Assembly: GCA_018335585.1 (NCBI GenBank)
Contig: JAGXRZ010000020.1
Location: 62,001 to 126,000 of the forward strand
Direction of reading: 5' to 3'
Source: Selenomonadales bacterium
GTDB lineage: Bacteria > Bacillota > UBA994
Length of the DNA: 64,000 bases
This document shows, one piece after another, positions 4,002 through 46,667 of this stretch. Positions within the stretch are counted from its first letter, which is position 1; each line of letters starts with the position of its first letter. Both the position numbers and the translations under genes were made by a program. Below the pieces are notes generated by a model that was given only the letters and a program-made list of their open reading frames with translations, was not told the origin of the DNA and ran no database searches.

Positions 4002-4038
4002 AAATTCGATACTAAGCCCTCCTCTCCTAAAAATCTAC

Positions 4039-32626: not shown

Positions 32627-33298
32627 TTACTTGTCTAGCTCGCACACAGTGTGAACACCCGGCAGCGCCGCTAAGTCGGCCATGGCCTCGGCCACGGCCA
32701 TGCCTTTAGGCAGCTTTAGCTCCAAGCGAACCTGCACATTACCGTCCGCCACATCTGCCCGGTCGATAGTAATGTTACGCACGCTGATATTCTTCCCGCC
32801 TAGTGCGGCGCCGATGCGCCCTAGCTGTCCGGGCTGATCTAGCGTGACTACGCCCATCTTCACATAACTAGCAGGGTTAATCCAGCCACGCTCGAGGTGA
32901 AAGAAGACGCCAAGCGTCAGATAAACCAAGACGGTAGCTGCCACCGCGCTCAGGTAAAACCCCGCACCACATGCCAAGCCGATGCCGGCTACAACCCAGA
33001 GCGACGCGGCCGTAGTCAGTCCGCGGATACTAGCTCCCTCACGCATAATTGTCCCGGCGCCTAGAAAGCCGATGCCAGAAACCACTTGTGCGGCGAGACG
33101 CCCAGGGTCATAGGGCTGACCGAACTCCTGAAACCCGTACATGGAAAGCAGCATAATCAGGGCTGCGCCAAGGGCCACCAGTACATGCGTGCGAAATCCG
33201 GCGGGTCGATTCAGGCCCTCGCGCTGTAACCCAATCGCGCCCCCTAAGATGCACGCCAACGTAAGCCGAAAGACCAAGCTTAATGCGGGTATCGACAC
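32627..33298 (-). CDS. MgtC/SapB family membrane protein
   Basis: A 223-residue protein with about five transmembrane helices over residues 1-140. It has the family motifs GGAIGLQREGLNRPAGFRTH near the N-terminus and GIGFLGAGTIMREG in the middle, plus a C-terminal ACT-like cytoplasmic domain (about 145-223). MgtC proteins affect magnesium homeostasis and membrane ATPase activity; the exact role here is unknown. GTG at 33298 has AAGGGGG 8 nt upstream and overlaps the glycosyltransferase stop, so the two are coupled. Together they occupy the place where proS and polC are usually found. Confidence 0.9.
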   Translation of the reverse strand: MSIPALSLVFRLTLACILGGAIGLQREGLNRPAGFRTHVLVALGAALIMLLSMYGFQEFGQPYDPGRLAAQVVSGIGFLGAGTIMREGASIRGLTTAASLWVVAGIGLACGAGFYLSAVAATVLVYLTLGVFFHLERGWINPASYVKMGVVTLDQPGQLGRIGAALGGKNISVRNITIDRADVADGNVQVRLELKLPKGMAVAEAMADLAALPGVHTVCELDK

Positions 33299-33939
33299 CT
33301 AGAACGCCCCCTTATGAATATGAGTGCGCGTAGAATGTGCCAGTACATCCTGAGGCGTGAGGCTAAGCCACGCCACAGACCTAATTTCTCTTCTTTCATG
33401 ACCTGGGTGACGTCATTTAGTGGCACGGTGCGGGTTGCAGTGTCGGATTCACGTAGGTAACGGGTTAGGGCAATCTCTACTCCCCACCCCGTATCGGCGA
33501 AGTTTGGCGCGCCACTTAACACGGCACGGGTCATGGCACGCTGCCCCGAAAGAAAAGGTGCAACCCTTTGGGCTAGATCTGTCATCAGGCGACCGCTGCC
33601 AAAAACTCCTAAGGTCGAGGCGACTTCACCTTGGAGAATCGGTTTGAGCAGGCTTTCCACGTGAGCAGGCATCAACCCGACCAAGTCGGCGTCTAAGAAC
33701 AGCACAACATCGGCGTCAGTGTGTGCAAACCCCACGAGCATGGCTCCGCCTTTGCCTCGGTTAGGTGAAAGCTCTATGGTACGCGCCCCGGCACTAGAAG
33801 CCTCACCGGCAGTGTTGTCGGTTGAGCCGTCACTTACCACGACTACTTCGTCGACTAGCGCGCACTGCTTAGCGGCTTGTACTACGCTGCCTACTGTACG
33901 CTCCTCGTTATATGCCGGTATTATCACCGCAACTTTAAT
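33280..33939 (-). CDS. family 2 glycosyltransferase (probable AUU start)
   Basis: A GT-A fold glycosyltransferase of about 219 residues. It has the nucleotide-binding start KVAVIIPAYNEERTVG, VVVSDGSTDNT, and the DVVLFLDADLVG metal motif. It resembles glucosyl-3-phosphoglycerate synthase- or dolichyl-phosphate-type enzymes, but the acceptor cannot be told. The only upstream standard start (TTG at 34035) is deep inside ispG without an SD, and GTG at 33927 would cut the first strand. A perfect AAGGAGG is spaced 8 nt from ATT at 33939, which I take as the start. The end overlaps the MgtC-like gene. Confidence 0.82.
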   Translation of the reverse strand: MKVAVIIPAYNEERTVGSVVQAAKQCALVDEVVVVSDGSTDNTAGEASSAGARTIELSPNRGKGGAMLVGFAHTDADVVLFLDADLVGLMPAHVESLLKPILQGEVASTLGVFGSGRLMTDLAQRVAPFLSGQRAMTRAVLSGAPNFADTGWGVEIALTRYLRESDTATRTVPLNDVTQVMKEEKLGLWRGLASRLRMYWHILRALIFIRGRSRCRYPH

Positions 33940-33953
33940 AGGTGCCGCCTCCT

Positions 33954-35021
33954 TTATCGGACTAGTGAGGCTGCCAGGCTTCGTACTTCGGCTGTGAGGC
34001 GCTCCGTCGCCTCGGCTAGAGGAATTAGCTCGCAAGCTTTGCCGTCGCGAAACAGCACTGCACCGCCGGGCGCAAGGGCAATGCCTACGTGCGCCTCGCG
34101 CGCTTCGCCGGGTCCGTTCACAGAACAGCCCATCACAGCAACTTTCAATGGCAGGTGACTAAACTCCTCTAGGTTTTTCTCCACGGCCTCGGCAATTTGA
34201 ATCAGCTCGCTTGACGTGCGAGCACAGGTTGGGCAAGACACAACGCGGAGTTGCTTGTCCGCAAGGTCTAGGCTCGCGAGAATCTCTTTGGCGACGCGCA
34301 CTTCCTCCACAGGGTCAGCTGTAAGGGAGACGCGGATCGTATCGCCGATGCCCTGCGACAAAAGCACACCTATGCCTACGGCCGAGCGCACTGCTCCGCA
34401 GAGCAAAGTACCGGCCTCGGTAACACCTACATGCAGCGGAAAATCCGACTGCTCACTAAACAAGACGTTAGCCCGAACAGTAGTATAGACGTCCGAAGAC
34501 TTAAGCGAAAAAATCAGGTTTTCAAAGCCCATGTCCCGTATTTCGCGCTCATGCAGGAGCGCCGCCTCTACCATCGCCTCTGCTGTCGGTCTGCCAAAGC
34601 GCGATAGCACGGCCGCAGGTAACGAACCCGAGTTAACACCGATGCGCAGAGCTGTGCCATAGCGGGAGGCGGCTGAGATGACAGCTCTCACTTCAGTGAC
34701 CCCCCCAATATTGCCGGGGTTAATCCGTACTTCTGCTGCCCCGCGCTCGATTGCTCCTACTGCCAAGCGATAATCAAAGTGAATGTCGGCGATAAGCGGC
34801 ACGTCTGTCTTCGCTACAAGTAACGCAAACGCGGACAGCGCCGCGCTGTCCGGCACTGCCACGCGCACAAGGCGACATCCGGCTGCTGCCAAACGTGAAA
34901 TCTGTGCCGCTGTGGCTCCGACATCGACTGTCGGGGTGTTCGTCATGCTCTGGATGACAATCGGGTAGTCTCCGCCAATCCGGACGTTTCCGACGTTTGC
35001 GACGCGGGTTGCTCTTCTCAT
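33954..35021 (-). CDS. ispG: 4-hydroxy-3-methylbut-2-en-1-yl diphosphate synthase
   Basis: Iron-sulfur enzyme of the MEP isoprenoid pathway that converts MEcPP to HMBPP. The 355-residue protein has a TIM-barrel N-terminal part beginning GGDYPIVIQSMTNT and the C-terminal 4Fe-4S ligands in SCPTCARTS and MGCSVNGPGEA. ATG at 35021 lies 4 nt after the rseP stop with a weak SD. With Dxr two genes upstream and UppS nearby, the cluster links isoprenoid supply to undecaprenyl synthesis. Confidence 0.97.
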   Translation of the reverse strand: MRRATRVANVGNVRIGGDYPIVIQSMTNTPTVDVGATAAQISRLAAAGCRLVRVAVPDSAALSAFALLVAKTDVPLIADIHFDYRLAVGAIERGAAEVRINPGNIGGVTEVRAVISAASRYGTALRIGVNSGSLPAAVLSRFGRPTAEAMVEAALLHEREIRDMGFENLIFSLKSSDVYTTVRANVLFSEQSDFPLHVGVTEAGTLLCGAVRSAVGIGVLLSQGIGDTIRVSLTADPVEEVRVAKEILASLDLADKQLRVVSCPTCARTSSELIQIAEAVEKNLEEFSHLPLKVAVMGCSVNGPGEAREAHVGIALAPGGAVLFRDGKACELIPLAEATERLTAEVRSLAASLVR

Positions 35022-44667: not shown

Positions 44668-46667
44668 TTGCTCTCTCCCCCAGCCGGCGTTTCACTGGGC
44701 CTTTGCCATACCACATAGCCACAGCTCGGGTAGTTGGAACAGCCATAGAACACGCGCCCGCGCTTGCTACGGCGCTCAACTAAGCTGCCGTCGCACTGTG
44801 GGCAAGCGACCCCGATAGACTTCAGCAAAGGTTTGGTGTTGCGGCAAGCCGGAAAGCCGGGGCAAGCGAGAAACTTCCCGAAACGGCCGGACTTTACCAC
44901 CATGTTGCGGCCGCATAGCGAGCATACTTCATCCGTCTCTTCGTCGGCAATTTCGACCTTGTCTACCCCGGCTAAAGCCCTATCGAGCTGTTCGGCGAAG
45001 ACCGCCCAGAACTCCCGCAGCACCTCTACGGCGGTAGACTGCCCGTTCTCTATAGCGTCGAGCTTGCTTTCTAGCGCTGCGGTAAACTTGACTTCCACTA
45101 GCTCCGGAAAGTGCTCAGTCAGTATTCCCACCACGACTTGTCCTAGTTCCGTAGCGACGAACCGCTTTTGCTCTTTTTCGACATACCCCCGGGCCTGAAT
45201 CGTGTCAATGATTGGCGCATAGGTGCTCGGCCTGCCAATCCCCTCTTCTTCTAGAGTCTTGATTAATGAGGCTTCCGTATACCTAGGCGGAGGCTGCGTG
45301 AAGTGCTGCTTAGGCGATAATTTTACGAGAGACAGCACCTGATTGACCTCGAGGGCTGGGAGCTCGCCCGCATCCTTTGTCTCCTCATCCTCGTTTTCTT
45401 CTTCGTAGAGTGCAAGAAAACCCGGGAACACCAACCGCGAGCCAACCGCCCGAAATGCATGCTCACCGGCTTCTATATCTACCTGCACAGTGTCAAAGCG
45501 CGCGTTTGACATCTGGGAGGCGAGAAACCGCGCGTGGATAAGTTTGTACAACTTGTATTGCTCGCTTGAAAGGGTGGCCTTTAGGTCATCTGGCTTGCGC
45601 TCCACGTAAGTCGGACGAATAGCTTCGTGGGCATCTTGCGCATGCGTGCCTGTGCCTGCATTCTTCTTAGACGCATACTGCCGTGCGGTGTGATACGACG
45701 GCCCAAACTGCGTCTTGATGTAGCTTTCGGCCTCGGTCATGGCCTCTTGCGCTAAGCGCGTGCTGTCAGTACGCATGTAGGTGATGAGTCCGACGGCTCC
45801 CTCTTTTCCCAGCTCAACCCCTTCATAGAGCATCTGAGCGATGCGCATCGTGCGCTTGGCCGTGAATCCTAGCCTTCTTGCCGCTTCTTGCTGTAAGGTA
45901 CTAGTGTTAAACGGCGGGGAAGGCTTCCGTTCTTTCTCGGTGCGCTTTACTGCCTTAACCACAAACTGCTGCTTTTGCAGTGCGGTGGAGATTTCCACCA
46001 CCTGTGCCTCGCTGACGAGCTCGCACCCCATCAGCTTAGCCACGAATGGCTTGGCCTGACTTGGCTTAAGGGAGACCTGTAGCGTCCAATACTCCTTGGG
46101 TAGAAAGGCTTGAATCTCTCTCTCCCGGTCGACAATTAAGCGCACGGCTACAGACTGCACCCGACCTGCACTAAGGCCCTTTCTCACTTTCGCCCACAGC
46201 AAAGGCGACAACTTATAGCCCACAATCCGGTCAAGAATGCGCCTAGCCTGCTGCGAATCCACTAGGCTTGCGTCGATGCGCCGCGGGTGTTTGAAGGCGT
46301 TTCGTACCGCCGCTTCGGTAATCTCATTGAAGGTAACGCGCGATGCGCTCTCTAGGTTAAGGCCCAAAGTATGCGCCAAATGCCAAGAAATCGCCTCTCC
46401 CTCTCGGTCAGGGTCGGTGGCGAGAAACACTTTGTCAGCTTTTTTGGCGGCTTCACGCAGTTCTTTGACCGTCTCACCCTTGCCCCTAATGGTTATGTAC
46501 TTAGGAGAAAAGTCCCTCTCAACGTCCACACCTAGCTGACTCTTAGGCAAGTCACGCAGATGACCGTACGACGCTTTAACGGCATACTTTGAACCTAGGT
46601 ACTTGGTAATAGTCTTAGCTTTGGCAGGAGACTCCACAATCACAAGGTATTTCGGCAGATAAATCAC
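44664..46667 (-). CDS. topA: DNA topoisomerase I
   Basis: Type IA topoisomerase (about 665 residues) that relaxes negative supercoils. It has a TOPRIM domain at the N-terminus (KYLVIVESPAKAKTI and TDPDREGEAISWHLA), the active-site Tyr in GLITYMRTDSTRL, and two C-terminal four-Cys zinc fingers (CSLCGRN...CPGFPAC and CPQCDGS...CSNYPSC). The first standard start is GTG at 46667, which is itself part of the SD GAGGTGAT; an in-frame CTG at 46658 lies 8 nt from GAGG and gives a family-like (M)PKYLVIVES start (see findings). Confidence 0.96.
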   Translation of the reverse strand: MIYLPKYLVIVESPAKAKTITKYLGSKYAVKASYGHLRDLPKSQLGVDVERDFSPKYITIRGKGETVKELREAAKKADKVFLATDPDREGEAISWHLAHTLGLNLESASRVTFNEITEAAVRNAFKHPRRIDASLVDSQQARRILDRIVGYKLSPLLWAKVRKGLSAGRVQSVAVRLIVDREREIQAFLPKEYWTLQVSLKPSQAKPFVAKLMGCELVSEAQVVEISTALQKQQFVVKAVKRTEKERKPSPPFNTSTLQQEAARRLGFTAKRTMRIAQMLYEGVELGKEGAVGLITYMRTDSTRLAQEAMTEAESYIKTQFGPSYHTARQYASKKNAGTGTHAQDAHEAIRPTYVERKPDDLKATLSSEQYKLYKLIHARFLASQMSNARFDTVQVDIEAGEHAFRAVGSRLVFPGFLALYEEENEDEETKDAGELPALEVNQVLSLVKLSPKQHFTQPPPRYTEASLIKTLEEEGIGRPSTYAPIIDTIQARGYVEKEQKRFVATELGQVVVGILTEHFPELVEVKFTAALESKLDAIENGQSTAVEVLREFWAVFAEQLDRALAGVDKVEIADEETDEVCSLCGRNMVVKSGRFGKFLACPGFPACRNTKPLLKSIGVACPQCDGSLVERRSKRGRVFYGCSNYPSCGYVVWQRPSETPAGGESK

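Follow-up and report, generated by a model that had tools for sequence, protein, structure and literature searches.

A probable AUU start codon in a glycosyltransferase gene downstream of ispG, and candidate near-cognate starts of RNase Y

A glycosyltransferase gene downstream of ispG

We analysed a stretch of 64,000 nucleotides (the window) from the genome of a Selenomonadales bacterium (GCA_018335585.1, contig JAGXRZ010000020.1, positions 62,001 to 126,000), a draft in 69 contigs that is called G000 below. Three genes on the minus strand make up the locus: ispG (gcpE; 33954..35021; Pfam PF04551, E 6.2e-132); a GT2-family glycosyltransferase gene downstream of it (33280..33939 from the AUU start to the stop), which was assigned from the open reading frame list, Pfam PF00535, its relatives and the selection acting on it; and an MgtC-family gene (32627..33298; open reading frame list and Pfam search) with a GTG start at 33298, which overlaps the 3' end of the glycosyltransferase gene. 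The ispG stop codon TAA (33954..33956) lies 14 nt before an ATT in the glycosyltransferase frame (33937..33939). The last base of this stop codon (33954) is also the first base of a perfect Shine-Dalgarno (SD) motif, AAGGAGG (33948..33954), and a spacer of 8 nt, CGGCACCT, separates the motif from the ATT. These coordinates confirm those of an earlier note, made from the sequence alone, which had proposed an AUU start at 33939.

The protein read from the ATT begins IKVAVIIPAYNEE and has 219 residues, with a stop codon that ends at 33280. Upstream, the glycosyltransferase frame has no stop as far back as 34158, and from there to residue 20 it contains only two canonical start codons: TTG 34035, which sits within ispG, and GTG 33927, which is residue 5 and lies 20 nt from the SD. 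Because AAGGAGG occurs 13 times in the window (both strands counted), the SD motif alone is weak evidence for a start, and it is conservation that carries the case. RNA structure at the start was nothing special (z-score -0.24).

The protein matched the GT2 family profile PF00535 with 80.4 bits (cut-off 23.3; E 1.9e-22), and its PDB relatives are glucosyl-3-phosphoglycerate synthases (E about 3e-17). The equivalog model for glucosyl-3-phosphoglycerate synthase (NCBIfam NF010496) gave 93.7 bits, below its cut-off of 262. Alignments with PF00535 and with PDB glycosyltransferases both begin at about residue 3 of the ATT-start protein, which thus has a complete first strand; the earlier note had likewise placed the first strand of a GT-A fold at this N-terminus.

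The start codon in relatives

We sought the glycosyltransferase in 101 genomes, 96 of which had some match at an E of 0.001 or better. The genus consists of G000, G001, G002 and G003, and the other family genomes are G004 to G007. Orthologues were found in three genus genomes, G000, G003 (79% protein identity) and G001 (73%), and in each of them the aligned codon, 14 nt beyond the end of ispG, is ATT. The G002 assembly lacks ispG as well as the glycosyltransferase gene and thus carries no vote on the ATT, which leaves three species with gene and ATT together. In G003 and G001 the sequence at the place of the SD is G-rich and SD-like rather than a perfect AAGGAGG. The three proteins share Ile in four columns, and the codon is identical in only two of these, so that identity of the ATT codon is, by itself, modest evidence.

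All four of the other family genomes carry ATG at exactly the codon that is ATT in the genus, which shows that the start position is right. More broadly, 24 of 27 loci outside the genus (L006-L032) have ATG, GTG or TTG at this codon; of the other three, L030 and L031 have a canonical start no more than two codons off, and L018 combines GTC at this position with an ATG 26 codons upstream. The earlier note had proposed looking in relatives for a conserved SD and ATT or for an ATG elsewhere, and its claim of an AUU start came through this comparison well: ATT is kept in G003 and G001, where we found no canonical alternative, and the ATG of G004 to G007 falls on the same codon. These alignments indicate that translation of the glycosyltransferase begins, with high probability, at the AUU of 33939.

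The alternative that survives best is a start at a canonical codon elsewhere, either TTG 34035 (which would add a 32-residue extension) or GTG 33927, since both are in frame in G000. Neither codon is conserved, however. Residue 5 is GTC or GTT in G003 and G001, and these two genomes have no in-frame ATG, GTG or TTG in the stretch that begins at the upstream stop, 17 and 50 codons back, and reaches residue 15; a canonical codon first appears downstream at residue 20 in G003 and residue 16 in G001, past the IIPAYNEE motif. Furthermore, a start at GTG 33927, besides its distance from the SD, would drop the first strand, and in other relatives the gene starts where the ATT lies. The view of the earlier note that no ATG, GTG or TTG lies at a workable distance was thus upheld, and we consider a canonical start elsewhere improbable. 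Still less probable is a frameshift at the end of ispG that would append the glycosyltransferase to IspG in place of a separate initiation. In each of the three genus genomes the glycosyltransferase frame passes the ispG stop without interruption, and it is one base apart from that of ispG, but no slippery heptamer was seen by eye at the ispG end, an SD is present, and G004 to G007 carry ATG at that point.

Selection on the gene bears on the two weakest alternatives. Among the three genus copies, dN was 0.13-0.20 versus a dS of 1.3-1.9, giving a dN/dS of about 0.08-0.12 between species with a common ATT, where the dS values are rough because synonymous sites are near saturation; the catalytic motifs are intact and the frames open. 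The glycosyltransferase gene is under strong purifying selection despite its ATT, which makes both a sequencing error and a dead gene very unlikely, the slimmest of the chances weighed here. An error in sequencing or assembly that hides an ordinary start codon would suit a draft genome, but the same ATT occurs in two more genomes that also lack a canonical start, and a decaying gene, for which loss of the start codon is a common first step, would not be expected to show such constraint.

A proposed route of AUU initiation

We propose that the AUU would be put in the P site either by a ribosome that has just translated ispG or by one that the overlapping SD brings in, and that the ordinary CAU initiator tRNA would start there despite the third-position mismatch, presumably with formyl-methionine. 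The product of a start at 33939 would then begin fMet-KVAVIIPAYNEE. Translation of the glycosyltransferase is likely coupled to ispG termination, and the strong SD and nearby ispG stop may compensate for the weak AUU codon. An ancestral ATG would have changed to ATT in the ancestor of the genus and then been kept, and a switch kept through speciation speaks for the weak codon being tolerated or useful. As a near-cognate codon, AUU would lower output of the glycosyltransferase relative to ispG and below that from ATG, and because IF3 rejects near-cognate codons, this output is probably sensitive to the IF3 level. Comparison shows where the start lies, that the ATT is conserved with no alternative beside it, and that the protein is functional; initiation at the AUU itself, the coupling, the lowered yield and the IF3 dependence are inferred, the last by analogy with other bacteria.

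Two changes in the initiation machinery were considered as causes and rejected. Loss of IF3 is contradicted by its presence in all eight family genomes, in each of which, G000 included, infC, the gene that encodes it, has an ATT start. A changed initiator tRNA was set aside since, where found, this tRNA is of the ordinary CAU type: the exact pattern GGGCTCATAACCC occurs in six of the eight genomes (no exact match in G001 and G002), and the anticodon of the tRNAs examined in G000 is CAU, the initiator having a GGG/CCC stem. With IF3 present and the initiator tRNA ordinary where found, altered decoding is neither needed nor indicated.

The glycosyltransferase very probably adds to an already known class of bacterial genes with AUU starts. 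In E. coli, infC and pcnB start with AUU (PMC5472188, PMC13009471); like these housekeeping genes, the glycosyltransferase has its AUU behind an SD, but E. coli infC is autoregulated through IF3, whereas any such control of the present gene would be a prediction. Ribo-Ret mapping in S. aureus identified non-canonical starts at cvfC1 (AUU) and at ccpN, infC and citZ (AUA) (PMC13009471). These resemble the glycosyltransferase in that they have a conserved non-canonical start and a strong SD (an extended one in S. aureus) and belong to Bacillota; they are other genes with experimentally mapped starts, unlike the glycosyltransferase, which stands second to ispG and whose SD overlaps the ispG stop. 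Reporter constructs in the same study yielded, from AUU or AUA and in poor medium, roughly one tenth of what AUG gave (PMC13009471), and, judging by these constructs, the yield of the glycosyltransferase could be low. The GTC start of Streptomyces sigR, which is conserved in its genus and keeps the protein scarce, is repressed by IF3 (PMC5472188). The near-cognate start of the glycosyltransferase is likewise conserved in the genus, but it is ATT rather than GTC, and the IF3 repression that is experimental for sigR is argued here from analogy. Finally, overproduction of IF3 lowers re-initiation, and does so less when an SD is present (PMC2268962).

Candidate near-cognate starts at RNase Y and other genes

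Several other genes of G000 and its relatives, notably RNase Y, seem from sequence comparison to start at rare codons. The earlier note had called an AUU start unusual; the codon is indeed rare, but such starts appear less rare than the note implied, given infC, topA, an M42-family peptidase and RNase Y in the same genome and the S. aureus genes.

RNase Y is the main mRNA-decay endonuclease of Bacillota. In G000, the proposed start of its gene (rny) is an ATC (window 4008..4010, minus strand; G000:C20:66010) 7 nt after AGGAGG, and within the family this codon is ATC in seven of eight genomes and ATA in one. A search of the 101 genomes detected RNase Y in 97, and we read the start region in 90 loci (L155-L162, L183-L264), of which 79 have an SD 6 nt or longer and the other 11 were left out. 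The in-frame codon 7-9 nt after the SD is ATT in 34, ATC in 11 and ATA in 12 of these loci (57/79), and otherwise a canonical ATG, GTG or TTG in 12/79 or CTG in 2/79; the neighbouring codons are ATT, ATC or ATA in 6/79 and 11/79. In 20 of the 90 loci, no canonical codon occurs from the upstream stop to nine codons beyond. Because the N-terminal region of RNase Y is rich in Ile (ATH at 0.27 per codon), only the peak of 57/79 and the 20 loci without a canonical start carry weight. An in-frame GTG within the SD itself, present in 29/79 loci, is a formal alternative start and may be the codon that annotation picks.

In B. subtilis, rny is described with an AUG start and an SD among the strongest of the genome (PMC10303841). 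A literature search, whose scope left out most subscription papers, returned no report of a near-cognate start for RNase Y. We regard it as evenly balanced whether near-cognate initiation is a standing feature of the lineage and, in much of the phylum, RNase Y is read from an AUU, AUA or AUC that follows an extended SD. If so, infC, pcnB and RNase Y would form an RNA- and translation-related set whose output is gated by start-codon fidelity, which would connect mRNA decay with IF3 or with the cell's initiation state. If confirmed, the pattern would mean that in many Bacillota the start codon controls an enzyme central to mRNA decay, and that the RNase Y N-terminus is misannotated in many genomes. 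This pattern is a more interesting lead than the glycosyltransferase and deserves a study of its own.

Other candidates came from a scan that covered 400 kb of G000 and picked out strong SDs lacking a canonical start; the best cases were compared with relatives. The M42-family peptidase gene (L128:7331-8380, plus strand; loci L163-L170) has CTG in all four genus genomes and ATG, ATG, TTG and TTG in the four others of the family; AAGGAGG is visible in three genus genomes, and the G003 contig begins just upstream. For topA (loci L173-L180), the proposed start is a CTG (window 46656..46658, minus strand; G000:C20:108658) that follows GAGGTGAT, and the codon is CTG in all four genus genomes and TTG, ATG, ATG and ATG in the rest of the family. 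In G000, both topA and a gene that we take to be FliJ-like, from its position and N-terminus, have a GTG three codons upstream, inside the SD, which makes CTG less certain for these two than for the M42 peptidase. The start of the FliJ-like gene (L134:10656-11090, minus strand; loci L305-L307) was read in five of seven loci (L310 and L311 were left out), and it is CTG in G000 and G003 and TTG, at the same codon, in G001.

After strong SDs inside open reading frames, a genome-wide raw count showed no excess of ATT: 11 of 1249 ATT codons, or 8.8 per 1000, a rate below that of many ordinary codons in a count swamped by internal SD-like motifs. We also compared orthologues between 400 kb of G000 and about 393 kb of G004 and kept 213 pairs. 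Starts were canonical in both genomes in 126 pairs, the SD was weak in 66, and three had no candidate. Near-cognate codons appeared in both genomes in eight pairs, mostly spurious, one of them RNase Y; in G000 only in five (topA, the glycosyltransferase, rsmD, a PRC-barrel-like gene and one weak case); and in G004 only in five, several with a canonical codon one step away. A count this crude shows no near-cognate excess of G000 over G004 (5 vs 5).

Where G004 has ATG, G000 has switched to GTG in 19 cases, to TTG in 6 and to near-cognates in 3, versus published switches from AUG of 363 to GTG, 113 to TTG and 3 to near-cognates (PMC5622118). The difference (Fisher p 0.003) weighs little, because the published counts use annotated starts, which disfavour near-cognates, and the same scan picked our three. 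Gene callers assume ATG, GTG or TTG and therefore misplace or miss near-cognate starts.

Two further genes were noted in passing. An rsmD-like gene (L136:13866, minus strand) has ATT in G000 only, GTG in G003 and G001, and ATG in the four other family genomes. The PRC-barrel-like gene (G000:C20:200953, minus strand) has CTG as its candidate start and GTG in G004.
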